Below, piece after piece: positions 4,178-43,763 of a DNA stretch of 43,763 bases. This stretch comes from a virus, in IMG/VR virus record IMGVR_UViG_3300032265_001799, positions 1 to 43,763 of that record. The stretch is one strand, 5' to 3'. A model generated the notes under the pieces. The model was given only the letters and a program-made list of their open reading frames with translations. It did no database searches and was not told where the DNA came from. How positions within the stretch are numbered: the first letter of the stretch is position 1; every line of letters starts with the position of its first letter. The position numbers were made by a program, and so were the translations under genes.

Positions 4178-4780
4178 ATGGCCGAAATACGAGATCTAAT
4201 TAAAAGGCTAGATCATATAGAAAATCTCAAAGAAGATGTTACTGGTGATGCAGCAGAAGTTGGTGCTAAGGCGATCGGCAAACACTTACCAGGTGTAGGT
4301 TTAGTATTTGGCGGAGCTGATGCTGCTTATAGGGTATATAATGGTGATTATCTCGGAGCCGGTATATCTTTACTTTCAGGTATCGTATCATTAGAACCAG
4401 GGCCAGGTACTGCTGCGAGCATAGCATTAGATGCAGCGAACATTGCTAGAGATCATTTAGCAGTCGCAGATAAGACACCAAATATAGTTGCAGATCCGGA
4501 AGCAGCCAAAGAAGTTGCTTCTGCACCAACTCCACCATCGGATAAAGATATAGCTACAATAGTTGGAGATAATTTGTCACCAGAAGCTATTTCAAAATTA
4601 GCTGCGGCTGCAGAACAATACGCTTTACCAGCGGCTGCTATAGTAGCATTATTATATGGGGGTAAGGTACTATATGATTATTTAACGGCAAAAACTAAGG
4701 AAAAAATTTCACCTAAAACTTCTATAAGAGAAATGATGGAGATAGTTAGAGCAGAACAGATAATAAGAGAGATGCTCTAA
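4178..4780 (+). CDS. Ala/Gly-rich hydrophobic late protein
   Basis: 200 aa. Residues about 38-90 are Gly/Ala rich and hydrophobic (L-P-G-V-G-L-V-F-G-G, then S-L-L-S-G-I-V-S-L), and a second apolar stretch lies near residues 149-170 (A-L-P-A-A-A-I-V-A-L-L-Y), so it may insert into or cross a membrane. The ends are charged. The late box upstream and the position among head-type genes suggest a virion or DNA-delivery protein; a holin-like role is an alternative without direct support. The last base of its stop codon is the first base of the next start codon (TAATG). Confidence 0.6.
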   Translation: MAEIRDLIKRLDHIENLKEDVTGDAAEVGAKAIGKHLPGVGLVFGGADAAYRVYNGDYLGAGISLLSGIVSLEPGPGTAASIALDAANIARDHLAVADKTPNIVADPEAAKEVASAPTPPSDKDIATIVGDNLSPEAISKLAAAAEQYALPAAAIVALLYGGKVLYDYLTAKTKEKISPKTSIREMMEIVRAEQIIREML

Positions 4781-5925
4781 TGTTATTAAATGAACTGTTT
4801 AGCAATCTCAAAGAAGCAGCTCCCGCAGTAGGTAGGAAATATCAACATATAGAAGATCTAGTGTTTACAAATGGATCAAATGGCGGATTACACGCTGTCG
4901 AACGTTTAAAACATATGGGAACGAAGGGCGGTAACATAGAACTAAAATGGGATGGAAGTCCTGTCGTCTATTGGGGAAGAGATGAGCAAGGACGCTTTAG
5001 CCTCATACCTAAAAATGCTTGGGAGTATCTAAAGCGTGGTAAGACACAGTTAGATAACGGTGCTCCGACGGTTATGTACAAACCACAAGATATAAGTGAT
5101 TTCATCTTAAATACCGGCAAAGCAGAACCCGATAAAGAAAAGGCTAGAAAAGCCTATGCTCAACAGCTATCTGGACTTTGGAAATATTTTGAAAAAGTTA
5201 GTCCAGAAAGAGGTTACCTAGAAGGAGGATTGCTTTTCTATCCTGGAGCGGAACCTCAATATAACGCAAATACAGGTGAATACGAATTCCAACCAAATCT
5301 AACTACGTTCCACATACCGGGCAATAGCGCTCTTGGAATGCGTATTAAAAATGCTGCTGTAATGGTAGCAGCCACAGGATACTATCCTACATTAGGTAGT
5401 AGCGAAGAAAGCCGTTATCCTGATGCAGAAAAGCTTTCTACACCAGACGTTATAGTACAAGGCACTACTTACGTTGAACAGGCGCCGGGTGCAGACGACG
5501 CAGGACTAAATGCTGCGGCTAAATTTATCTCATCCAATGCACAAGCCATAGATAATTTCTTAGCACCGAAGCCGGGATTAAGTAAACCTGGTGATATATT
5601 ATATAAGTTCTTTAATCAAAATTTACGCATAGCAGGTGTGAAGAAAAAATTCCAAGAATGGGCTATGCAAAATCTATCAGCAGGACAAGCAGGTAAAGTC
5701 GTTAATGATCCAGGTTTAGATGTCGTATTAACTGCCGTAGAAATGCTCACAAAAGAAAAAATGAAACTGATAGATTCATTAAGTAAAGGTACACACGGTG
5801 ATATAAGGCAAACTAAACCCGAAGGATATGTCCAGGCACACCCCGGTGGTAAGTTTGCTAACGATATTCCGGGACAGTTTGTAAAGACCATAGATCAAAA
5901 AAATTGGTCTCCGAGGAAAGATTGA
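4780..5925 (+). CDS. Putative head protein with nucleotidyltransferase-like KWDG motif
   Basis: 381 aa. The N-terminus M-L-L-N-E-L-F then L-K-E|A at residues 10-13 resembles a T4 capsid-targeting leader followed by a prohead-protease site. Downstream is a segment I know from T4-like marine phages as a conserved protein of unknown function (H-I-E-D-L-V-F then N-G-G-L-H-A). Near residue 66 it has E-L-K-W-D-G-S-P-V, matching the K-x-D-G adenylation motif of DNA and RNA ligases, and later an L-E-G-G-L-L-F strand. That is suggestive of a covalent nucleotidyltransferase fold, but I could not place the remaining ligase motifs. It overlaps both neighbours by one base (TAATG and TGATG). Confidence 0.65.
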   Translation: MLLNELFSNLKEAAPAVGRKYQHIEDLVFTNGSNGGLHAVERLKHMGTKGGNIELKWDGSPVVYWGRDEQGRFSLIPKNAWEYLKRGKTQLDNGAPTVMYKPQDISDFILNTGKAEPDKEKARKAYAQQLSGLWKYFEKVSPERGYLEGGLLFYPGAEPQYNANTGEYEFQPNLTTFHIPGNSALGMRIKNAAVMVAATGYYPTLGSSEESRYPDAEKLSTPDVIVQGTTYVEQAPGADDAGLNAAAKFISSNAQAIDNFLAPKPGLSKPGDILYKFFNQNLRIAGVKKKFQEWAMQNLSAGQAGKVVNDPGLDVVLTAVEMLTKEKMKLIDSLSKGTHGDIRQTKPEGYVQAHPGGKFANDIPGQFVKTIDQKNWSPRKD

Positions 5926-8900
5926 TGTTTTTACGTGAGCTATTAAACGAAACCCTAACTAGGACAGGACACGGAAGCACTGCCGTCGTTGGTTGGGGGC
6001 GCGGTATGGGACATAAAGGTCATATGTATCTAGCTAGCGCAGTCATACACAAGGCACAGGAAGTAGGCGGAGATCCCTACTTCGTGGTGAGCAGGACTGT
6101 AGGAAAAGATGATCCTATCAATCCAGAAGAGAAGATGGCTATCTATAAGAAGGTATTTCCAGACAGCAGCCATATATTCCAAACTGCTACAGATGAGATG
6201 CCTGATCTAACTCGTGTATTATCAAATCTAAATCAACAGGGCTATACTAACGCTATAGTAGTAGTCGGAGCTGATCAAGTCAAGGCCCTCGCATATGTTA
6301 AGAACTATAACAATACTCCAGATAAGACAGGTAAAGTACATTATAAGTTTGATAACCTAGAAGTCATCAGCAGACAAGAAACTAGCGCACCGGATGCACA
6401 GGAAGAAGGTCCGCGTGCTACACCTATGCGCCAGGTGTTGATGGATCCAGCTGCTACAGAAGAACAGAAGTTTGCTGTATGGCGTGATGCTATGAATCCT
6501 GAGATAGACGATACCCAAGTTATGGATCTAATGCATAAAGCAGAACAGCGTATGAAGGCTATACCTGCTAAGAAAGTTAAAGAAGGCGTCTTTATGCAAA
6601 AGATGAAGAATAACTTCGGTATGGATCAATCTGCTTATGATACTAAGAATCCAGGTACCAGTCCTGATTACGTAGATAGCAACATCACAGTACAGCTTCT
6701 CAAGAATATCGATCGACATGGTGGATATCCAATACAGTTTAAAGACGGAACAGAACTACACGTTAGTAGCTCATTATCACAAAAAATATTATTTAAGATA
6801 CAGGACCTATTACCTAAAGAACGCCACGCTGTTATAAATCATATAATACAGTCTAGTACTAACTTTAAAAGTTTTGCACAAGGTCTATCAGAATCCATGA
6901 TGCCAAAAAAAAACTTCGCAGGCGCTGATAAGAACAAACTAGGTCCAGCTGCACACCTAAAAGGCAAAATGAAACGAGCTGCTAAAGCAGGCGATCTTGT
7001 TGGTGCGATGGAAGCATTTGATAGTGGTAGTCCGGTAGGTGGCAAACGTGGTAGTGGAGAACCACACGCAGGATATGATATGGACGCTATGCGTAAAGCT
7101 ACTGGCACGATGGAAGATACCGACGATTTTGAAGTACACGGTTATCATCATCTAGACGAGCTGTTAGCAGAACTCTGCAGGATGGTAGTAGAAGGTCATA
7201 AGCAGGATCCCGAACGCAATGGATTAGTGGCCGCGGGAATCAAGACCAAACTGTATCCATTCATGGCTAGGGTAGGTTATATGGGCAAGCACGGCCACGT
7301 ACACGCAGAACGTGCTGTATTAGAAGCGTTTACTAGCAAACACGGCGAAGTTCCTGAAGGCAGCATAATGTTAGTCACACTAAGCCCTTGCAACAGACAT
7401 GATGATAAAACTGCTAGTGAGCGTGTTGGTGAACCCTGTAGCGAATTAGTAGCGGCACACGGTATAGAAAAAGTCTATTGCGGGTTAATCGATCCAAGCC
7501 AAGCACACGGCGGACACGACCACAGGCACTACACACTGATCGAAACAGAAAATTCTAAGATAAGAGATCTCTGCGAACAGTTTGCAAATACTTTTTTGCA
7601 CGGAAAAGAAAGGCTATATGAATCAACTAGTTTCACAGGAGCATTAAGGAACCAACTAAACAGATGGATGGACAAGGACCAAAAATTTAAAGATCCTTCC
7701 CAAAGGATACAGTTCCAAGAAGAGATTTGGCCACAGATAGAAAAATATCTAGTTTACATCCTAGAAGATAGAGGCCCAAAGGGCGACGGCGATTATCCTA
7801 GCTCTGCATTTGCTGCCTGGTTACTTGTACAGCATATGGATGCTTTCCCTAATAGGCAGCGTGAGTTTTTAAATGCCTTAGAACAGTACATACCCAATCA
7901 TCCCAAGATACAGTTTTTGAGAGATAGATTAGCGGTGAATGAATGGGTTCTAGAACATTATAGAGAAAAAAAATACTACTATAAGGGCGAACCTCTGCCC
8001 GATCCCACGGTTAATATACGCAACCCCGCATACTTTAAAGATGCGTCTATTAAATCTGAAACCAGATCAGAAGCATTATCTAACGCAGAAAAATATGACA
8101 ATGTGCTGTTGGTCGCCGCGGTCAATGCCACGGGCGCAGAAACACAGCCTTCATATACACAGCAAAGTGAAAGCATAAGTGAAGTCGCGAAAGTTCGTTT
8201 GAGCAAGGATCCCAATGACACTGGAGCTTATGTCAGAGACATTGGTCAGGCGGAAAAAACAGTTGATGTACCTATTAGCAAAATAACTGTTTTTGAACCC
8301 GATGAAAAGTTCGATGATCCACGCTATGCTAAAAAACTTAAAAACATAATAGATGCTATAAGATCAGGTAAAACCCTGCCACCTATACTGTTGCGTAGAT
8401 ATGGTGTAGACAGATATCAGGTTTTAGATGGACATCATCGTTTCAAGGCCTATAGGAAACTGGGCAAAAAAACTATTCCTGCTCGCATAGTTGATGCTAA
8501 AAATATCTCAGGCGACATAGATGAGTCGTTGGATTCTTCATATAGATTCAAATATGAAGGTATGGATGGTGAAGATACTTATATCTATAGTTTTATGCCT
8601 GAAAATGGTAGTATGATAAATGTTTCAATATATAATGAAGAAAAAACTGGAATGGCGCACGTGGTATTTTATCGGGCCAACGATGACTCAGAAGAAATGA
8701 CAGGTGAGCATCCTACGACCGCTGCTAAGGTTCTAGGCACCGTCAAAGCTATCATACGCCAGCATCTCCAAAAATTTAAAAATATTAAGACCGTTAAATT
8801 TGAAGCGAGTAAAAAAGACCTAGGACGTGTTAGAGCCTACAACGCGATAGTTAAACGCTTAGGAGGCAAAGCTGATCTCGATTATCACAAAAAATATGCT

Positions 8901-9218
8901 GCGTATGAAATTCCTACTAAAGTCGCCGCGGTCGCCGAAGGTATTCAAATTCCTACACATAGAACAAAAGCAAACCTAAGTACCGAAAATGGTAAACTAT
9001 TACCTAAGGGATCTGAAATGCGGAGAGCGGGAAGCAAACTTTACGTTCATATAGTAAAAGGAAAACCAAAAGATCTTTATAACATAGAAAAACATCTAGT
9101 TGATCCTATCGAAACTTCCGAAGACGCAGCAGGCGTAGGGATAGTGACAAAGCAAAACAGCACAGCAGATGTAGGTCCGGGTACTATCAGGAAAAACCTA
9201 AAGGCATTTAAACTATGA
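5925..9218 (+). CDS. Giant fusion: nucleotidyltransferase, deaminase and ParB-like domains
   Basis: 1097 aa. Start ATG 5925 is in a TGATG overlap with the previous stop and has GAGG nearby; earlier in-frame codons lie inside the previous gene. The leader M-F-L-R-E-L-L-N-E|T fits the capsid-targeting pattern. Domains: residues about 20-215, a class I nucleotidyltransferase with H-K-G-H at 30-33 (cytidylyltransferase/NadM-like); about 425-570, a zinc deaminase-like domain with H460-A-E462 and Cys489 and Cys505; about 750-870, a ParB/Srx-like domain with G-H-H-R at 836-839; then a mixed domain near 890-1000 and a basic tail. [IVL]-x-E sites lie between domains: VKE220|G, LAE416|L, VVE423|G, ISE753|V, VAE1005|G. 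I infer an internal head protein possibly cut into separate enzymes. Cleavage is unproven. Confidence 0.78.
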   Translation: MFLRELLNETLTRTGHGSTAVVGWGRGMGHKGHMYLASAVIHKAQEVGGDPYFVVSRTVGKDDPINPEEKMAIYKKVFPDSSHIFQTATDEMPDLTRVLSNLNQQGYTNAIVVVGADQVKALAYVKNYNNTPDKTGKVHYKFDNLEVISRQETSAPDAQEEGPRATPMRQVLMDPAATEEQKFAVWRDAMNPEIDDTQVMDLMHKAEQRMKAIPAKKVKEGVFMQKMKNNFGMDQSAYDTKNPGTSPDYVDSNITVQLLKNIDRHGGYPIQFKDGTELHVSSSLSQKILFKIQDLLPKERHAVINHIIQSSTNFKSFAQGLSESMMPKKNFAGADKNKLGPAAHLKGKMKRAAKAGDLVGAMEAFDSGSPVGGKRGSGEPHAGYDMDAMRKATGTMEDTDDFEVHGYHHLDELLAELCRMVVEGHKQDPERNGLVAAGIKTKLYPFMARVGYMGKHGHVHAERAVLEAFTSKHGEVPEGSIMLVTLSPCNRHDDKTASERVGEPCSELVAAHGIEKVYCGLIDPSQAHGGHDHRHYTLIETENSKIRDLCEQFANTFLHGKERLYESTSFTGALRNQLNRWMDKDQKFKDPSQRIQFQEEIWPQIEKYLVYILEDRGPKGDGDYPSSAFAAWLLVQHMDAFPNRQREFLNALEQYIPNHPKIQFLRDRLAVNEWVLEHYREKKYYYKGEPLPDPTVNIRNPAYFKDASIKSETRSEALSNAEKYDNVLLVAAVNATGAETQPSYTQQSESISEVAKVRLSKDPNDTGAYVRDIGQAEKTVDVPISKITVFEPDEKFDDPRYAKKLKNIIDAIRSGKTLPPILLRRYGVDRYQVLDGHHRFKAYRKLGKKTIPARIVDAKNISGDIDESLDSSYRFKYEGMDGEDTYIYSFMPENGSMINVSIYNEEKTGMAHVVFYRANDDSEEMTGEHPTTAAKVLGTVKAIIRQHLQKFKNIKTVKFEASKKDLGRVRAYNAIVKRLGGKADLDYHKKYAAYEIPTKVAAVAEGIQIPTHRTKANLSTENGKLLPKGSEMRRAGSKLYVHIVKGKPKDLYNIEKHLVDPIETSEDAAGVGIVTKQNSTADVGPGTIRKNLKAFKL

Positions 9219-9883: not shown

Positions 9884-9963
9884 GATACTCTCCGTACTTG
9901 TTAGCTTAAACAGTATACAATCTAGATGCTAATAAAAAGTTAATAGACATAATTTAAAATGGA

Positions 9964-9976: not shown

Positions 9977-12900
9977 ATGAGAATAGATGAAGTAACTTCC
10001 ACCGATGTGGATAAATTAGTATCCCTTTTTGGTGATCTTTTGATGATCTGTAAAAAAGAGCTACAGCTAGATAGCCTGCCCAAACTTAAATGGGTAACCG
10101 ATGGTAGCTTTAGCAAGCAGTATCACAGCTTTGGTAGCTTCCAGCCAGGTGAGAATATAGTTACTGTTAGTTTAACAAATCGACATGTCATAGATATGAT
10201 GAGAACCTTAGCACACGAATTAGTGCATTATAAGCAGATGTTAGATGGAAGGCTTGGTCCTAAAAGTGGCGAGACTGGAAGTCCTATTGAAAATGAAGCT
10301 AATGCTATGGCAGGTGTCATAATGCGCAAGTTTGATCATATGCATCCTGAAGCATTTAGTATTAAGCCTATAATGATTGAAAATGTTAAACACAATCTTA
10401 ATAAGATGTTAGTAGAAGGCCAATCTGAACCTAGAAAGCCTTTTAAGCCATATGATCCGTATGCTCCGCAACCTGTTATCAATATGCAGCCACCAGATGG
10501 TAGTATAGCAAGAGTTGGGCAGCGATTGGCTGGTAAAGCAGGGCCTGCTCAAAATTCAGACCCTAGTCATTGGCCAAGCAACACGAACGGGATTATTACT
10601 CCTGGTGGGCAGATAGGAACTGCTTGGAAGCCAGATCCAAAAGCTGATAATACTCCGTACACTCCATATAAGCCTGATTGGGCAACTAACAAACCTGATC
10701 CAGCATGGAGCCCTGAAAAATTAAGAGCAAACCAGAGTTACCAAGATGGCCAAGTTCCGGTTGATAAATGGAAGGACAACGAATGGGGTGGGAAAACATC
10801 TCCCTCAGGTGTTCATGCTAATCCCGCAACATTAGATACTTCAAAATGGGTCAATAATCAACCACCCGATGCAACTAAGGGCGCTGGGCAAGATTGGCCA
10901 ACAGGAACAACACAGCAAGACAAGCCATCATTTCTCAAGAAGGAAATAGATCCACAGGCTGTTGCAAATTCTGCGCCACAACCAGAAGCGCCCAAGCCAG
11001 CAGCACCAGCAGCACCAGCAGCACCCGAAGCTGCTTCTGATGTAGAAAAACTAAACGAACTATTAGCAGAATTTAAAATGCCTCCTAATCAAAGACTTTC
11101 TAATAACGTAATTGATCAAAGAATACCCGGAGAATGGTATCATCCCTCAAATATTGTAAAAAGCATCGATAATGATAAAAGTATTGTGCCAATGGCTGAC
11201 AGACCTACATTAGCACCAAGCAAAAAACCTCCAGAAGCTAGTGATGTTACATCAATGGATTTAATAAGTCATAGTTTTCAAAATCCTTCAAAAGCAGCAG
11301 TCACTCCAAACAGTTTTGCAAGGGCAATAAAGCCAAATGCTATCGATAAGGAGCAACCACCACAACCAACAGCACCCGCAGCACCGAAGCCAGCAGCACC
11401 AGCAGCACCAGCAGCACCAGCAGCACCCGAAGCTGCTTCTGATGTAGAAAAATTAAACGAACTATTAGCAGAAGGGCCTCCTACACCTCCAAAGCGTCCG
11501 GCAGCTACATCTCCAGCAGCACCGGCTCCCCCGGAGGATAATTTCATTTCAGGAATTGGTAAGGGAATCGTATCTGCCGTAAATCCATCAAACTGGTTAG
11601 GCAGTGGTCCAGATAAACAACTACAACAAAATGTAAAAAATGTAGTACAGAATCCAAATCAGGGAAATGTTGGAAATGTTGTAGGGCAAGCAATAGTAAA
11701 TAATGCACCAGGCACAGGTAATATTAAGAATGCAGCTTCGGCGGCAAGTAATACTGTAGATGCTGTAAGAAACGTAGCCAAAGGCGATATTAAAGGTGCT
11801 GCAAATAGTGCTATAGATGCAGGAACTAATGCACTAGGTGCAGTACTTCCGCTAGCTGGAACAGCTGCTAGTGCAGCAACTAGTTTATTCAGAAATAGCA
11901 CCCCAGCAGAACCTGGAAATTATCCAAGTGATCAAAACAACGAAGATCAAGCTATAAGCGAACTAAATGAGCTTTTAGGTGAAGTTAATGACGATTCTTC
12001 CTTAGCGGCACAATCGAGTCCAAAAAATTGGAACTTACCTAACAATCTTCAAGGGTCATTAAGTACACAGACGGCGCCTGTAATACCATCAAGCACATCA
12101 TTAAAACAAATACCAACATCGAAAACTACACAATCAGACGAGCCATCCCCTTCACCACTAAGCGTTGGTCAAGTTCAAACCCCTTCAGGACCTGTGAGAA
12201 CTGGGTCTGCACAGGTGGGAGCAGGACCAATAGTCGGACAATTTTCTACTAGCAATGTTGGAGGCAATGGAGATACAGGAATAGGTTCCCAAAGATCAAA
12301 TACAACAAATTTAAGTACAGCTCTCCCACTTGGACTTAGAGCTGGTGTTACTTCTAATCAATCTAACGGGCAAAGAAATAATACTGTTGATGTATCAAAA
12401 AATTTGTCACTAGGTGATAAAGGTAATCTAAATGTTGGATCTAATATTCCAACAAATGGAGGGAAACCTTCTTTTTCAGGCAGTGTAAATTACGGTGGGC
12501 TAAATGCTAATGCAAATGTTTCACCAGGTGGACAAAAACAATTTACAGTTGGATATAACAAGAGCTTTGAAAGTATAAAAAGATTAAATGATCTCTTAGC
12601 TGAACATTCTGTTGAGATTGGTCATATATATGGTAATAAAAACTTACCTAAAATTAAAGAAAAGATAAATCCAAAAGATAAAGGTAAAGTACACAAAGGA
12701 CTTAGGATAAGTGAAGTAGTAGGAAAAGGCACTCCAGAAGTATATGTAGACATGGATGGCGTCCTAGCTGACTTTTTCAAAGACTGGAACAAAATGGTAG
12801 GTGTAGGGCATTGGAAAGAAATCCAAGATCCGGAAAAAGCATTGGATCTAATACGAGAGCATCCTACCTTTTGGATCGATCTAAAGCCATTACCAAATGC

Positions 12901-13288
12901 TCCTAAATTATTAGGCGCTGTTAAAAAGTTCGCTGGCAAATATGATATCTGCACTAGTCCACTAGGTAAAGATCCTAATTGTGAACCGCAGAAGAGAGCT
13001 TGGGTACAAAAGTATCTATCTGGATTTAGTCCAGATGAAGTACACGTCACGCATAATAAACCACAGTTTGCTAAACAAGCTGACGGTACTCCTAACATAT
13101 TAATAGATGATTTCGGTAAGAACATACGTGCTTGGGAAGCTGCTGGAGGAATAGGTATACACTACGAAGACAAGAACGCAGGCCGGGCAATACAAGAACT
13201 AAAATCTGCTATGACTGCTCGTCCTCGAACCAGCGGCGATCAATCCAAACCGGCCAGTTTACCCCAGGAAAAATCCAAAGATCTGTAA
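9977..13288 (+). CDS. Giant fusion: zinc metallopeptidase, Pro/Ala linkers, HAD nucleotidase
   Basis: 1103 aa from ATG 9977 (an ATG at 9959 would add 6 residues but then lies upstream of the late box). Residues 1-147 are a metallopeptidase-like domain with H-E-L-V-H at 80-84 and a downstream E-N-E-A-N-A segment. Long low-complexity parts follow: Pro/Ala repeats, an Ala/Gly-rich hydrophobic stretch, then Ser/Thr/Asn/Gly-rich sequence. Residues about 918-1085 form a 5'(3')-deoxyribonucleotidase-like HAD domain with D-M-D-G-V-L-A-D-F (catalytic Asp 925 and 927) and a later L-I-D-D-F. Five [L]-x-E sites punctuate the chain: LVE147|G, LAE365|F, LAE499|G, LGE669|V, LAE876|H, four of them ending an L-N-[ED]-L-L-x-E motif. 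I infer a head-packaged protein cut by the prohead protease, delivering a peptidase and a nucleotidase. No SD is seen. Confidence 0.75.
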   Translation: MRIDEVTSTDVDKLVSLFGDLLMICKKELQLDSLPKLKWVTDGSFSKQYHSFGSFQPGENIVTVSLTNRHVIDMMRTLAHELVHYKQMLDGRLGPKSGETGSPIENEANAMAGVIMRKFDHMHPEAFSIKPIMIENVKHNLNKMLVEGQSEPRKPFKPYDPYAPQPVINMQPPDGSIARVGQRLAGKAGPAQNSDPSHWPSNTNGIITPGGQIGTAWKPDPKADNTPYTPYKPDWATNKPDPAWSPEKLRANQSYQDGQVPVDKWKDNEWGGKTSPSGVHANPATLDTSKWVNNQPPDATKGAGQDWPTGTTQQDKPSFLKKEIDPQAVANSAPQPEAPKPAAPAAPAAPEAASDVEKLNELLAEFKMPPNQRLSNNVIDQRIPGEWYHPSNIVKSIDNDKSIVPMADRPTLAPSKKPPEASDVTSMDLISHSFQNPSKAAVTPNSFARAIKPNAIDKEQPPQPTAPAAPKPAAPAAPAAPAAPEAASDVEKLNELLAEGPPTPPKRPAATSPAAPAPPEDNFISGIGKGIVSAVNPSNWLGSGPDKQLQQNVKNVVQNPNQGNVGNVVGQAIVNNAPGTGNIKNAASAASNTVDAVRNVAKGDIKGAANSAIDAGTNALGAVLPLAGTAASAATSLFRNSTPAEPGNYPSDQNNEDQAISELNELLGEVNDDSSLAAQSSPKNWNLPNNLQGSLSTQTAPVIPSSTSLKQIPTSKTTQSDEPSPSPLSVGQVQTPSGPVRTGSAQVGAGPIVGQFSTSNVGGNGDTGIGSQRSNTTNLSTALPLGLRAGVTSNQSNGQRNNTVDVSKNLSLGDKGNLNVGSNIPTNGGKPSFSGSVNYGGLNANANVSPGGQKQFTVGYNKSFESIKRLNDLLAEHSVEIGHIYGNKNLPKIKEKINPKDKGKVHKGLRISEVVGKGTPEVYVDMDGVLADFFKDWNKMVGVGHWKEIQDPEKALDLIREHPTFWIDLKPLPNAPKLLGAVKKFAGKYDICTSPLGKDPNCEPQKRAWVQKYLSGFSPDEVHVTHNKPQFAKQADGTPNILIDDFGKNIRAWEAAGGIGIHYEDKNAGRAIQELKSAMTARPRTSGDQSKPASLPQEKSKDL
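10994..11473 (+). repeat. Two direct repeats within the metallopeptidase fusion gene
   Basis: Copy 1 spans 10994-11071 (78 nt) and copy 2 spans 11387-11473 (87 nt). They are the same except for one extra 9-nt Pro-Ala-Ala unit in copy 2 and one base change. Each encodes a Pro/Ala tract followed by E-A-A-S-D-V-E-K-L-N-E-L-L-A-E. This looks like recent internal duplication of a linker plus protease-site module. Confidence 0.9.
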
Positions 13289-13377: not shown

Positions 13378-14211
13378 ATGAAAAAGCTAATTTTATCAAC
13401 AGCAGTCTTTTTGGGCGTAATCGGTTCAGCATATGCTTGGGATCAAAAGCCTAATCAGCCAATCACAGCCTGCGCAGCACAGGTTCCATACGGTGCGCCA
13501 GTATTAAATAAAGCAAACACAGTTGTAAAGTGCAATACTGCATACGCACTACAACACGACAATGCCGCCAAGATTCCAGCTTGGGTAGCATATACACTAA
13601 CACCTGCACACGCTATTGGATGCGTTGCTCGTACCAATGCGTTCGTTGCTGACGCTGCATTAGGTGCAAGCAGTGCTAAGCCAAGCGACTATGCAGGCTC
13701 AGGATACGATCAGGGACACCTGGCTCCGGATGGTGATATGAGCTGGGATACCCAGGTTGAGTTTGAATCATTCTTGATGTCAAACATGAGTCCGCAGCTA
13801 CCAAATCTAAATCGCGGTATTTGGAAGGCTCTAGAGAGCGATGTCCGTGCTTGGGCATACGGTAACAATCAGGCGTACACGGTCTATGCAGGCAACATCT
13901 ATACTGTAGGTAAGAGCAAGACGATCGGCGGTGGGGTGGTTGTTCCGGACTATCTCTACAAGATCGTGATTAACAATGCTACTAAGCAGGTGTTAGCTTT
14001 TACTTTCCCACAAGTAGCTTCGCAGCCTATCGATCTACCAGCACATTTGGTTAGCATCGCTAGCATCGAAACAGCAACAGGTATCAGCTTCCCAGTACCA
14101 GCTGGTGTTGATAAGACCAAGCCTGCCGCAGCAGTTTGGCCAGTTGACCTAAAGAAGACTGCAGATGCTAAGAAGGCACAGTGCAAAGGTGCGCCGGGAA
14201 CTGAAGACTGA
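13378..14211 (+). CDS. Secreted DNA/RNA non-specific endonuclease (NUC1 type)
   Basis: 277 aa. Start ATG 13378 has AAAAGGAG 6 nt upstream and begins a classic Sec signal peptide: M-K-K, a hydrophobic core, and a likely A-Y-A|W-D cut after residue 20. The mature part carries the beta-beta-alpha-metal nuclease motif as Y-D-Q-G-H-L-A-P (His114 the general base; the family usually has D-R-G-H) followed by S-N-M-S-P-Q and an N-R-G-I-W helix with the metal-binding Asn. Such enzymes cut DNA and RNA without sequence preference. Secretion suggests action in the periplasm or outside the cell, for example against competing phage DNA or nucleic acids released at lysis, which is inference. The preceding gene ends 89 nt upstream. 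Confidence 0.85.
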   Translation: MKKLILSTAVFLGVIGSAYAWDQKPNQPITACAAQVPYGAPVLNKANTVVKCNTAYALQHDNAAKIPAWVAYTLTPAHAIGCVARTNAFVADAALGASSAKPSDYAGSGYDQGHLAPDGDMSWDTQVEFESFLMSNMSPQLPNLNRGIWKALESDVRAWAYGNNQAYTVYAGNIYTVGKSKTIGGGVVVPDYLYKIVINNATKQVLAFTFPQVASQPIDLPAHLVSIASIETATGISFPVPAGVDKTKPAAAVWPVDLKKTADAKKAQCKGAPGTED

Positions 14212-14222: not shown

Positions 14223-14480
14223 ATGAAAATACGTGAACTATTAGAAACAGCAACAGCGGGGGCTACTTCAAGTGCTAGTGTAGGCACTGTAGTTAGCCCC
14301 CATCTTGCTATAGGCAAAAAGCGCGGTCATACTAGCTATACTGGTAGTCCAGGTAAGAGTGGAACTAAAGCGCCTAAGCCACCTAAAGTAAGCCAACCAA
14401 AAACCAAATCCGGAACCGCCGTAAATGCGCTCGATATGAAGGGTACTAGTATTTTCGGTGGACCCACTATCAAGCGATAA
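14223..14480 (+). CDS. Small basic head-type protein with capsid-targeting-like leader
   Basis: 85 aa. It begins M-K-I-R-E-L-L-E|T, very close to the start of the gene at 15870 (M-K-I-S-E-L-L) and of the T4 capsid-targeting type. The rest is a Gly/Ser/Thr region followed by a Lys/Pro-rich stretch (K-A-P-K-P-P-K-V), likely unstructured and DNA-binding. It is read from a late box placed 5 nt before the ATG with no ribosome-binding site, so I infer a leaderless late mRNA. An internal head protein is the best guess. Confidence 0.65.
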   Translation: MKIRELLETATAGATSSASVGTVVSPHLAIGKKRGHTSYTGSPGKSGTKAPKPPKVSQPKTKSGTAVNALDMKGTSIFGGPTIKR

Positions 14481-14957: not shown

Positions 14958-15662
14958 ATGCGTTTAAACGAGGTGCTTTCTATAAACGCATTTGAATGTA
15001 GTGGTAATGACAACTGTAGTTGCGGCTGTCAACACAAAACCACTTTTGAAACAGCAGATTTTGATTGGGAGTCAGCCGACGAACCCATGCCAGTACGCAC
15101 GATCAAGGACATAGCACGCAGAATATTTGCAAAGAAATATCCAGATGCTAAGATAACCCTATCAGGCAGCGACAATGAAGACGGTAGTGTATGGATACGA
15201 ACCGTTCCTGAGAATTATTCACTGCTGATGAGTTGCGGTGCGCAGATGAATGAGATAGTCATCTTCATACAAGAAGCCTATGCCGGTGATTATAGAGGCG
15301 TCACCGGTCCTATCGTAGCAGCAGTCATGACTGCTGCTCTGCGCCGTTGGGGACAACCCCCAGATGGCATACATTTGGTTCCACACGAAGATACCAGTTC
15401 TGGCTGGAGAGGAGACACAGGTAGCTATTGGCAAAAACTAGCCAATCAGTTAGGTATCAAATACAGTCCAAACAGCGTTAAAGAGAACTTCGCAGACGGG
15501 CGACATCCCGAAGATAAAGGAGACAGTCGTAGACACGGTATTCCTAAAAAAGCATCTCTATCTAAACTAGATAAAATCACTCATAGCAAGTCTGCTAGTC
15601 CCCGCAAAAAACAATTAGCGCATTGGCAGGCAAATATGCGTCGAGGACGCGAAAAACACTAA
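14958..15662 (+). CDS. Cys-rich N-terminal, basic C-terminal phage protein
   Basis: 234 aa from ATG 14958; a TTG directly before it would add one residue. It begins M-R-L-N-E-V-L, again like the capsid-targeting leaders nearby. Residues 13-26 contain C-S-G-N-D-N-C-S-C-G-C, a likely metal site with five Cys counting the earlier one. The middle (about 60-165) looks globular. The C-terminus from about residue 175 is very basic (D-G-R-H-P-E-D-K-G-D, then S-R-R-H-G-I-P-K-K) and starts after V-K-E|N, a possible protease site. It is likely a DNA-contacting virion protein. No enzyme family recognised. Confidence 0.65.
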   Translation: MRLNEVLSINAFECSGNDNCSCGCQHKTTFETADFDWESADEPMPVRTIKDIARRIFAKKYPDAKITLSGSDNEDGSVWIRTVPENYSLLMSCGAQMNEIVIFIQEAYAGDYRGVTGPIVAAVMTAALRRWGQPPDGIHLVPHEDTSSGWRGDTGSYWQKLANQLGIKYSPNSVKENFADGRHPEDKGDSRRHGIPKKASLSKLDKITHSKSASPRKKQLAHWQANMRRGREKH

Positions 15663-15679: not shown

Positions 15680-15883
15680 ATGCTCCTATCCAAACCACTA
15701 AGCGCAACAGAGTCAAAAAGACTCGCAATACATTATATTGGTGAAGAAAAATTCAAAAACGGGCTAACAAAGAGCTTATTTAAAAAAGTGTTAGCTAAAT
15801 CCAAAAAAATAAGAAAACATATCAAGAAGGAAGAAAGAGCAAAGTCTCGCTGCTCTGATAAATATCTTTATGAAAATATCTGA
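15680..15883 (+). CDS. Small very basic protein
   Basis: 67 aa from ATG 15680, chosen because AAGGAG (15666-15671) lies 8 nt upstream; a longer in-frame ATG at 15623 falls inside the previous gene. About a quarter of the residues are Lys or Arg (K-K-I-R-K-H-I-K-K-E-E). It may bind DNA. The last codons overlap the start of the next gene and contain its late promoter box. Function unknown. Confidence 0.6.
   Translation: MLLSKPLSATESKRLAIHYIGEEKFKNGLTKSLFKKVLAKSKKIRKHIKKEERAKSRCSDKYLYENI
15857..15864 (+). promoter_or_regulatory. T4-type late promoter box GATAAATA, 5 nt before ATG
   Basis: The box lies inside the end of the preceding gene, exactly 5 nt before ATG 15870. Predicted +1 is the A of the ATG. 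No Shine-Dalgarno sequence fits that start. Confidence 0.6.
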
Positions 15884-16361
15884 GCTCCTCATAGAAACAG
15901 CCGCTTGGCAAAAAAAGTCTGGTAAAAATCCTTCTGGTGGGTTAAACAAGAAGGGTGTAAACAGCTATCGTAAAGAACATCCCGGAAGCCATCTACAGAC
16001 AGCAGTTACTACTAAGCCCAGCAAACTAAAGAAGGGTTCCAAGGCTTCTAAACGTCGAAAGAGCTTCTGTGCCCGAATGAAAGGTATGAAGAAACATCGT
16101 ACCGGTGCTAAAACAAAGCATGATCCAAATAGCAGGATAAACAAGAGCCTACGCAAATGGCATTGTGAGAGCATTGAGGAAATGAGGGATCTAATCATTT
16201 TTGCTGAACAGTATATTAATGATGTGCGATTCTTACAAGAAGCCGTAACTCGAGAAGATGATAACGGAAATACGCACTGTTGGACTGGCTATCGCAAAGT
16301 TGGCCTTAAGAAAAAAGGCGGCAAAATGGTCAATGATTGTCGTCCTATAAAGGGTAAGTGA
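15870..16361 (+). CDS. Basic head-type protein, DUF6321-like
   Basis: 163 aa beginning M-K-I-S-E-L-L-I-E|T, a capsid-targeting-like leader with an L-I-E site. Residues about 12-95 are strongly basic with S-G-K-N-P-S-G-G-L-N, T-T-K-P-S-K-L-K, R-R-K-S-F-C-A-R-M and D-P-N-S-R-I-N-K-S-L-R-K-W, which I recognise as the conserved DUF6321 segment of T4-like marine phages. A later L-Q-E124|A125 fits the prohead-protease consensus and would release a basic tail with two Cys. Late box 5 nt before ATG and no ribosome-binding site. Likely a DNA-binding internal head protein; biochemical role unknown. Confidence 0.7.
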   Translation: MKISELLIETAAWQKKSGKNPSGGLNKKGVNSYRKEHPGSHLQTAVTTKPSKLKKGSKASKRRKSFCARMKGMKKHRTGAKTKHDPNSRINKSLRKWHCESIEEMRDLIIFAEQYINDVRFLQEAVTREDDNGNTHCWTGYRKVGLKKKGGKMVNDCRPIKGK

Positions 16362-29813: not shown

Positions 29814-30653
29814 ATGTTTGGAAAAAATGAGATCGTCGGACAGAAATACTTCAACGATGCTGGTGATAAGCTCTTTATCACCAGTATTTTTTATACACTC
29901 CAAGGAGAAGGACCATATCGTGGAGAGCCCGCAGTATTTGTGCGTCTTGCTAAGTGCAATCTGGCTTGTAGCTTTTGTGATACTTATTTCGATGGCGGAG
30001 ACTGGTTAACATTTGGCGAGATCGATCGCCGTATCTTTAATGTCGTTTCAGATTACTTTGGCGGTGTACATCCCGACTGGATCGAAAAGAAAGTAGGATT
30101 GGTCATTACAGGCGGTGAACCTATGCTACAGAAGAATCTAGGACCATTCCTCGATATGATGCAAGATCATTTTGCTTGGACGCAGATCGAAAGCAACGGC
30201 ACTGTTTGGCAAGACTTGCCAGAAACAACCACTTTAGTGTGTAGTCCAAAGTGTTTAGAGAAAGACGGCAAGCCCATTAAGTATCTCAAGCCTAATACTG
30301 ATGTTATGGATCGTGCAAACTGTTTGAAATTTGTTATGAACGCAGATCAGGATAGCCCATATAGCAGCATTCCAGACTGGGCACACGAATATGCTGCACA
30401 AGGTAAGCAGGTTTTCATTAGTCCAATGAACATTTATAATCGCGAACCGCAAAAGAGCAAGCAGTTGCGTAGTGAAAAAAATGATATTGGTATTGAAGAG
30501 CGTAGTGCTGTTGATGAGGTGATTAGTTTTTGGGAAGAAGGCTTGCTAGATATGCGAGAGAATCAAAAGAATCACGAATACGCAGCACAGTATTGTGCTA
30601 AGAATGGATTCACACTGAATCTACAGATACATTTATATGCTAGTTTGGCATAA
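29814..30653 (+). CDS. queE: 7-carboxy-7-deazaguanine synthase (radical SAM)
   Basis: 279 aa. QueE turns 6-carboxytetrahydropterin into 7-carboxy-7-deazaguanine (CDG). It has Q-G-E-G-P-Y-R-G near residue 30, the radical SAM cluster motif Cys48-x3-Cys52-x2-Cys55 followed by D-T, and I-T-G-G-E-P-M at 98-104. Length is somewhat above the usual 210-240 aa, with an extended C-terminal part. It has its own near-consensus promoter and AAGGA site. Together with FolE, QueD-like and DpdA-like it forms a nearly complete route to a deazaguanine-modified genome; no QueC is visible in the window. Confidence 0.93.
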   Translation: MFGKNEIVGQKYFNDAGDKLFITSIFYTLQGEGPYRGEPAVFVRLAKCNLACSFCDTYFDGGDWLTFGEIDRRIFNVVSDYFGGVHPDWIEKKVGLVITGGEPMLQKNLGPFLDMMQDHFAWTQIESNGTVWQDLPETTTLVCSPKCLEKDGKPIKYLKPNTDVMDRANCLKFVMNADQDSPYSSIPDWAHEYAAQGKQVFISPMNIYNREPQKSKQLRSEKNDIGIEERSAVDEVISFWEEGLLDMRENQKNHEYAAQYCAKNGFTLNLQIHLYASLA

Positions 30654-43508: not shown

Positions 43509-43763
43509 ATGACATTAAAAAAAGATATTAACTTTGAAAAAGATAAATCATATGTACCCGTTTTAGATCATGGGTTTGTAGGACTAGTGGATCATATGGG
43601 CAGTGATGATGCTATCGTCCGAGCAGCCCGAGTTAGCTACGGAGAAGGAACTAAGAAAGTACAAGGCGATCGCGGATTGATACGCTATCTCATGCGACAC
43701 GAGCATACTACTCCTTTTGAAATGTGTGAAGTTAAATTCCATATCAAGCTCCCTATCTTCGTG
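43509..43763 (+). CDS. thyX: Flavin-dependent thymidylate synthase, N-terminal part
   Basis: The first 85 codons are visible; the gene runs off the window. [18 protein letters not shown] and [13 protein letters not shown] fit the start of ThyX, which makes dTMP from dUMP using FAD and methylenetetrahydrofolate. The R-H-R-x-x-S signature is expected beyond the edge. No ribosome-binding site is seen and the promoter is very close, so the mRNA may be leaderless. A broken copy of the promoter and start lies at 41760-41838. Confidence 0.85.

Follow-up and report, generated by a model that had tools for sequence, protein, structure and literature searches.

The window, the whole stretch of viral DNA analyzed here (43,763 nucleotides), is a complete IMG/VR record and represents a 43.8-kb linear fragment. 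On its plus strand, positions 9977-13288 hold an open reading frame (ORF) whose stop-free translation comprises 1103 residues. An alternative, longer start was present at 9959, and the start at 9977 was favored because a shorter relative of the ORF in IMG/VR (locus L008) can only begin at the position equivalent to 9977. The features of this ORF and of its surroundings are as follows, with a slash marking the putative cleavage point.

4780-5925, plus strand: DUF6267 protein with the leader-like start MLLNELF
5925-9218, plus strand: second polyvalent ORF (cytidylyltransferase, CMP/dCMP deaminase, and ParB-like), leader MFLRELLNE/T
9977-13288, plus strand: putative cargo polyprotein ORF, 1103 aa, start backed by L008
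9977-10396, plus strand: unit 1, zincin-type metallopeptidase-like domain (HELVH at residues 80-84; AlphaFold2 pLDDT 88)
10397-10417, plus strand: site 1, LNKMLVE/G, after residue 147; conserved in L008 (LNRLLAE/G) and L009 (LNKKLFE/V)
10418-11050, plus strand: unit 2, Pro/Ala-rich low-complexity block, missing from L008
10997-11071, plus strand: 75-nt duplicated segment, copy 1, containing site 2
11051-11071, plus strand: site 2, LNELLAE/F, after residue 365; based on motif and duplication
11072-11452, plus strand: unit 3, Pro/Ala-rich block, missing from L008
11399-11473, plus strand: 75-nt duplicated segment, copy 2, containing site 3
11453-11473, plus strand: site 3, LNELLAE/G, after residue 499; based on motif, L008 alignment, and duplication
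11474-11962, plus strand: unit 4, Gly/Ala/Asn-rich block, the sole block retained in L008
11963-11983, plus strand: site 4, LNELLGE/V, after residue 669; based on motif
11984-12583, plus strand: unit 5, Ser/Gly/Asn-rich block, missing from L008
12584-12604, plus strand: site 5, LNDLLAE/H, after residue 876; conserved in L005 (LNELLAE/H) and L008 (LNDLLAE/G)
12605-13285, plus strand: unit 6, HAD 5'(3')-deoxyribonucleotidase with DMDGV motif (PF06941; phrog_2643)
14223-14480, plus strand: small protein, leader MKIRELLE/ followed by TATAGATSS, as after the capsid-protein cleavage junction
14958-15662, plus strand: neighbor with the leader-like start MRLNEVLS
15870-16361, plus strand: DUF6321 protein, leader MKISELLIE/T

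The initial annotation had reported five L-x-E sites that divide the chain between its domains, two of them in duplicated DNA, and these observations held in full. The heptad L-N-x-[LM]-L-x-E occurs five times in the translated ORF, each time with Leu at P3 and Glu at P1, and its copies end at residues 147, 365, 499, 669, and 876; the peptidase domain ends before residue 147, and the nucleotidase match starts after residue 876. Shuffling the residues of the ORF yielded a mean of 0.0018 heptads against the five real ones, with a maximum of one in 20,000 shuffles. The sites at residues 365 and 499 are not independent, because both fall within the 75-nt duplication, a recent one whose copies (10997-11071 and 11399-11473) are 99% identical. 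The generic pattern [LI]-x-E occurred 14 times in the ORF (5.3 expected), and some of these occurrences fall within the nucleotidase fold, so an L-x-E by itself does not identify a site. The string EKLNELLAE was likewise dropped as a diagnostic mark per se, as it is also found as ordinary sequence in unrelated phage proteins. The case for the heptads as putative sites, made here from sequence comparison, is one of position and context and not of the string.

The chain combines unrelated activities, a zincin-model domain and an NT5C nucleotidase, in one polypeptide. The HELVH motif of the peptidase domain (residues 80-84) was intact, and zincin folds (Wss1, IrrE, and minigluzincins) were among the best matches of its AlphaFold2 model (pLDDT 88), with modest scores. 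No Pfam peptidase model (SprT, IrrE/ImmA, and other zincin families) matched the ORF over the cut-off, and a sequence comparison of the peptidase with solved structures gave no match. In the same model, the site 1 region formed a short helix. The nucleotidase was identified by an NT5C (PF06941) match at residues 922-1059 (34.6 bits vs. a cut-off of 24.8), with its DxDG motif present as DMDGV at residues 925-929, and unit 6 also matched phrog_2643. A full-length AlphaFold model built from two sequences was poor throughout (pLDDT 33) and provides no basis for a claim of disorder. By eye, residues 670-876 (11984-12583) showed alternating strand-like stretches resembling outer-membrane beta-hairpins.

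IMG/VR gave no match when the entire chain was used as a single query sequence; shorter and aligned queries gave matches. The 542-aa protein of L008 consists of the peptidase, LNRLLAE/G, one block, LNDLLAE/G, and the nucleotidase, and its alignment with the window ORF differs by whole units of block plus site, with breakpoints at the heptads. L005 retains LNELLAE/H before the nucleotidase behind a different linker. In G003 (L009), the peptidase and the nucleotidase are encoded by separate adjacent genes starting with MKINEV and MKIFEVDSE/G, respectively; the peptidase carries the site-like LNKKLFE at the same position, followed by a different Cys-rich extension, and the starts of both genes are leader-like. 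Thus, in the alignment of related proteins that had been proposed as a check, the two enzyme boundaries retained their sites despite variation in linkers and blocks, and homologues with the domains but without the sites, which would have refuted the processing hypothesis, were not encountered in L008, L005, or G003. The full LNxLLxE form was seen only in a small clade, and most other junctions retain phi-x-E only. The related sequences are not independent, and all evidence for cleavage is comparative.

At least 583 phage relatives were found in a search with the peptidase, of which 80 were kept. The standalone peptidases mostly begin with leaders (e.g., MKIQELLIE/S, MKVRELLTE/G, MRASQFIVE/G, and MKFKELLAE/Q), and a longer fused relative opens with MRINELLEE/K. 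The leader pattern phi-phi-x-E was present in 20 of 26 standalone peptidases against 1.9 expected from shuffled N-termini, a comparison that does not amount to a probability because the sequences are related. Cyanophage relatives of the same enzyme kinds open with MNYKQFLRE/S, MKNFHQFITE/A, and MKSFFQFLSE/A. The cyanophage S-SM2 protein SSM2_108 combines an N-terminal MKTLKQFLKE/T with an internal RKTFEEFRE/S, and its module is shared by Bellamy and P-TIM68. The strict leader pattern was not enriched genome-wide in Sinorhizobium phage Phosso or in whole contigs, indicating that leaders mark only a subset of genes. In the T4 capsid-targeting sequence (CTS), residues 4 and 7 serve targeting, residues 8 and 10 serve processing, and gp21 cleaves after [LI]-x-E (PMC9026906). 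The hydrophobic residues and the Glu of LNELLAE appear to match these CTS positions, as inferred by comparison with T4, and the motif agrees with the CTS pattern phi-x-E-phi-phi-x-E/. The N-terminus of the ORF itself, MRIDEVTST, lacks the phi-phi-x-E part of a T4-type leader and does not meet the CTS criterion (an N-terminal leader of approximately 10 residues with hydrophobic residues at 4, 7, and 8 and Glu at 10), whereas the internal heptads fit the capsid-targeting pattern, though they are not N-terminal.

The same rule was recognized at the borders of unrelated modules. IMG/VR yielded 66 distinct contexts for the W-x-x-KYK module, a Cys/His sequence of 28 residues (W[ST]xKYKxSI[ND]CxxPKGFSQ). 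In these, the module follows either an N-terminal leader (e.g., MKTFKQFQE/, MRAREFITE/, and MLIREITE/) or a junction located as far in as residue 1001 of a long ORF. Of all contexts for which sufficient upstream sequence was available, 60 of 64 had Glu at P1, and the exceptions were mostly modules beginning at or near Met, without a leader. In the internal contexts, P1 was Glu and P3 was Ile, Leu, Val, or Phe in 32 of 32 (25 of 25 for both positions after removal of redundancy), and other upstream positions were near background. The TATAGATSAG module, which the window protein at 14223 has as its body, was preceded by phi-x-E in 53 of 58 cases, either at the N-terminus or internally as far as residue 680. 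In the capsid protein gp23, a sequence of the TATAGATSAG type likewise comes after the propeptide; large contigs show YLAE/AATAGATSSGNV, and Phosso shows PLME/TATAGATSAGNV. This gp23 junction was placed via comparison with T4, in which cleavage of gp23 by gp21 is established, and not by experiment. The shared phi-x-E and the partly shared flank indicate that leader, polyprotein joint, and capsid junction obey one rule. At the level of sequence, the sites, their conservation at the enzyme boundaries, the exchange of blocks, the likeness to leaders, and phi-x-E at module and capsid junctions are thereby documented.

These junctions bear on three other explanations. The repeats might be mere traces of recombination and low-complexity expansion without a role in processing, as two sites lie within the 75-nt duplication, block exchange has its breakpoints at the repeats, and EKLNELLAE occurs in unrelated proteins. 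However, conservation of phi-x-E at module junctions in 25 dissimilar upstream contexts, together with its loss where a module begins at Met without a leader, makes this explanation barely credible. We also consider it very improbable that the heptads are uncut helices that dock to the scaffold core for targeting only. Targeting and processing by the T4 CTS are separable, in that Asp at position 10 stops cutting but not targeting (PMC9026906), and the helical site 1 region would suit docking; yet the P1 Glu is the most constant position, P3 is hydrophobic, and P2 is free, which is a signature of cleavage and not of the targeting residues, and other polyprotein junctions keep phi-x-E with no remaining leader. 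Alternatively, the N-terminal zincin peptidase could cut its own polyvalent chain at the repeated sites, given its intact HELVH and the zincin autoprocessing proposed for polyvalent proteins (Iyer et al., PMC5512222). Self-processing appears improbable, because the same phi-x-E joints are present in the capsid protein and in ORFs without an adjacent peptidase, some of which encode very short proteins made of a leader and a module. This distribution points to the prohead protease and not to the zincin. Moreover, many peptidase relatives are standalone proteins with leaders of their own. The peptidase may be an effector rather than a processing enzyme.

The family-B DNA polymerase of the window was closest to those of Phosso and Agrobacterium phage Atu_ph07, both of which are jumbo phages encoding the S77 T4-type prohead protease and the capsid protein gp23. 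The S77 protease was also found in HTVC008M and Melnitz. Of the 11 module-carrying contigs with a length of 170 kb or more, 10 encode it (7 of 8 and 3 of 3). Genes for S77 and gp23 were not detected in the window or in its closest contigs, but these are all fragments, in which absence settles nothing, and absence of S77 from short contigs is uninformative. The phage is best read as T4-type and probably as jumbo. In addition, a probable QueE-like radical-SAM enzyme of the 7-deazaguanine pathway (29814-30653) and the start of a ThyX-like thymidylate synthase (43509-43763) were recognized by eye in the window.

The ORF at 5925-9218 differs from its counterparts in L008 and L009 by whole-module insertions. 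Its ParB module is flanked by SESISE and DIDESLDSSY, and L008 has nothing but SESIDESLDASY at this point. An L-D-E-L-L-A-E within the same ORF was not accepted as a site, because it falls where the deaminase region starts and because Gly replaces Glu in L008. A domain related to the cytidylyltransferase T4-GC190 heads this ORF behind MFLRELLNE/T. T4-GC190 has been detected by mass spectrometry in purified virions of cyanophage S-SM1 (Sullivan et al., PMC3037559); the S-SM1 gene opens with MKKFSAFLNE/A and its S-SM2 orthologue with MKSFFQFLSE/A. This detection lends indirect support to the packaging of leader-bearing enzymes of this set. Between the 1103-residue ORF and the small leader protein, positions 13378-14208 encode a non-specific DNA/RNA endonuclease (PF01223), which L005, L008, and L009 have at the same place. 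Its apparent signal peptide would make it a secreted or periplasmic nuclease within a phage cargo cluster.

Taken together, the ORF at 9977-13288 likely encodes a head-cargo 'polyvalent' polyprotein with internal targeting and cleavage sites that is split by the S77 prohead protease, although there are no cleavage data. Each LNxLLxE heptad would be an internal copy of the N-terminal capsid-targeting leader of T4-type head-packed proteins. The chain would be drawn into the prohead core during assembly, where the S77 (gp21-type) protease would cut after the Glu of phi-x-E and set free the peptidase, the nucleotidase, and the blocks between them. These separate proteins would then enter the next host along with the DNA. 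That this protein is packaged, cut, and co-injected is an inference, as is the probable outcome that one gene delivers several enzymes into the next host cell. The comparison of sites and blocks and the T4-type junctions support the initial annotation in its reading of a protease-processed polyprotein, for which experimental proof of cleavage is lacking. Two refinements are suggested: the joined units look like packaged cargo and not like shell components, and the heptad, judged from its residues, is predicted to be a copy of the targeting leader beyond a mere cut site.

Polyvalent proteins of phages and conjugative elements also join unrelated enzymatic domains, including zincin-type peptidases, in one chain (Iyer et al. 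2017, PMC5512222), and they are predicted to enter the host with the DNA (PMC5512222). The present ORF differs in that its domains are punctuated by repeated capsid-targeting/phi-x-E sites pointing to S77; no punctuation of this sort turned up when the text of PMC5512222 was searched for wording on cleavage sites, the prohead, and linkers. The internal proteins of T4 (IPI-III and Alt) share the leader pattern and the [LI]-x-E rule and are packaged and injected, but each has one N-terminal leader, whereas the ORF has five internal copies between six units. Alt is also cut near its C-terminus. The T4 scaffold and core proteins gp22, gp67, and gp68 undergo multiple [LI]-x-E cuts per protein, as proposed for the ORF, but their products are core fragments that are mostly discarded, not enzymes. 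Head proteins of phiKZ and SPN3US have several Glu sites each for a gp21-related prohead protease; according to the portions of the sources consulted, these cuts follow the rule S/A-x-E or A-x-E, remove propeptides, and, unlike those proposed here, are not reported to split enzyme domains (PMC5694885, PMC10052503). A search of the literature on phage polyproteins and proteases, with subscription papers and preprints outside its scope, found no papers.

Head-packaged effector polyproteins of this kind, consisting of unrelated modules in varying order with phi-x-E joints, freed by S77 in the prohead and with targeting leaders reused as joints, are likely to be widespread in T4-type and jumbo phages. 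If so, they would be a phage counterpart of the polyproteins of eukaryotic viruses and would account for the processing of polyvalent proteins in T4-type and jumbo phages. Such processing had been predicted earlier with the mechanism left open and zincin autoprocessing suggested, whereas the junction rule names a different protease and exact cut positions. A leader or a phi-x-E joint would also serve as a sequence-only mark for head-packaged cargo and could place many 'hypothetical proteins' from jumbo phages and cyanophages inside the virion.

Other arrangements were observed among the relatives. In L087, L120, L129, and L146, the peptidase is fused to regions that appear by eye to be lysozyme-like or chitinase-like, with joints such as LEE/G and MTE/G, and these fusions may represent lysins in the same kind of polyprotein. 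Long polyproteins are also encoded by L076 (1016-aa ORF) and L180 (1242-aa ORF), the latter with GNAT acetyltransferases, a deaminase, and the W-x-x-KYK module. Additionally, a contig from a jumbo-phage relative (G002) contained Hsp70-, Hsp20-, and ClpS-like genes, recognized by eye, at approximately 16.3-19.7 kb.
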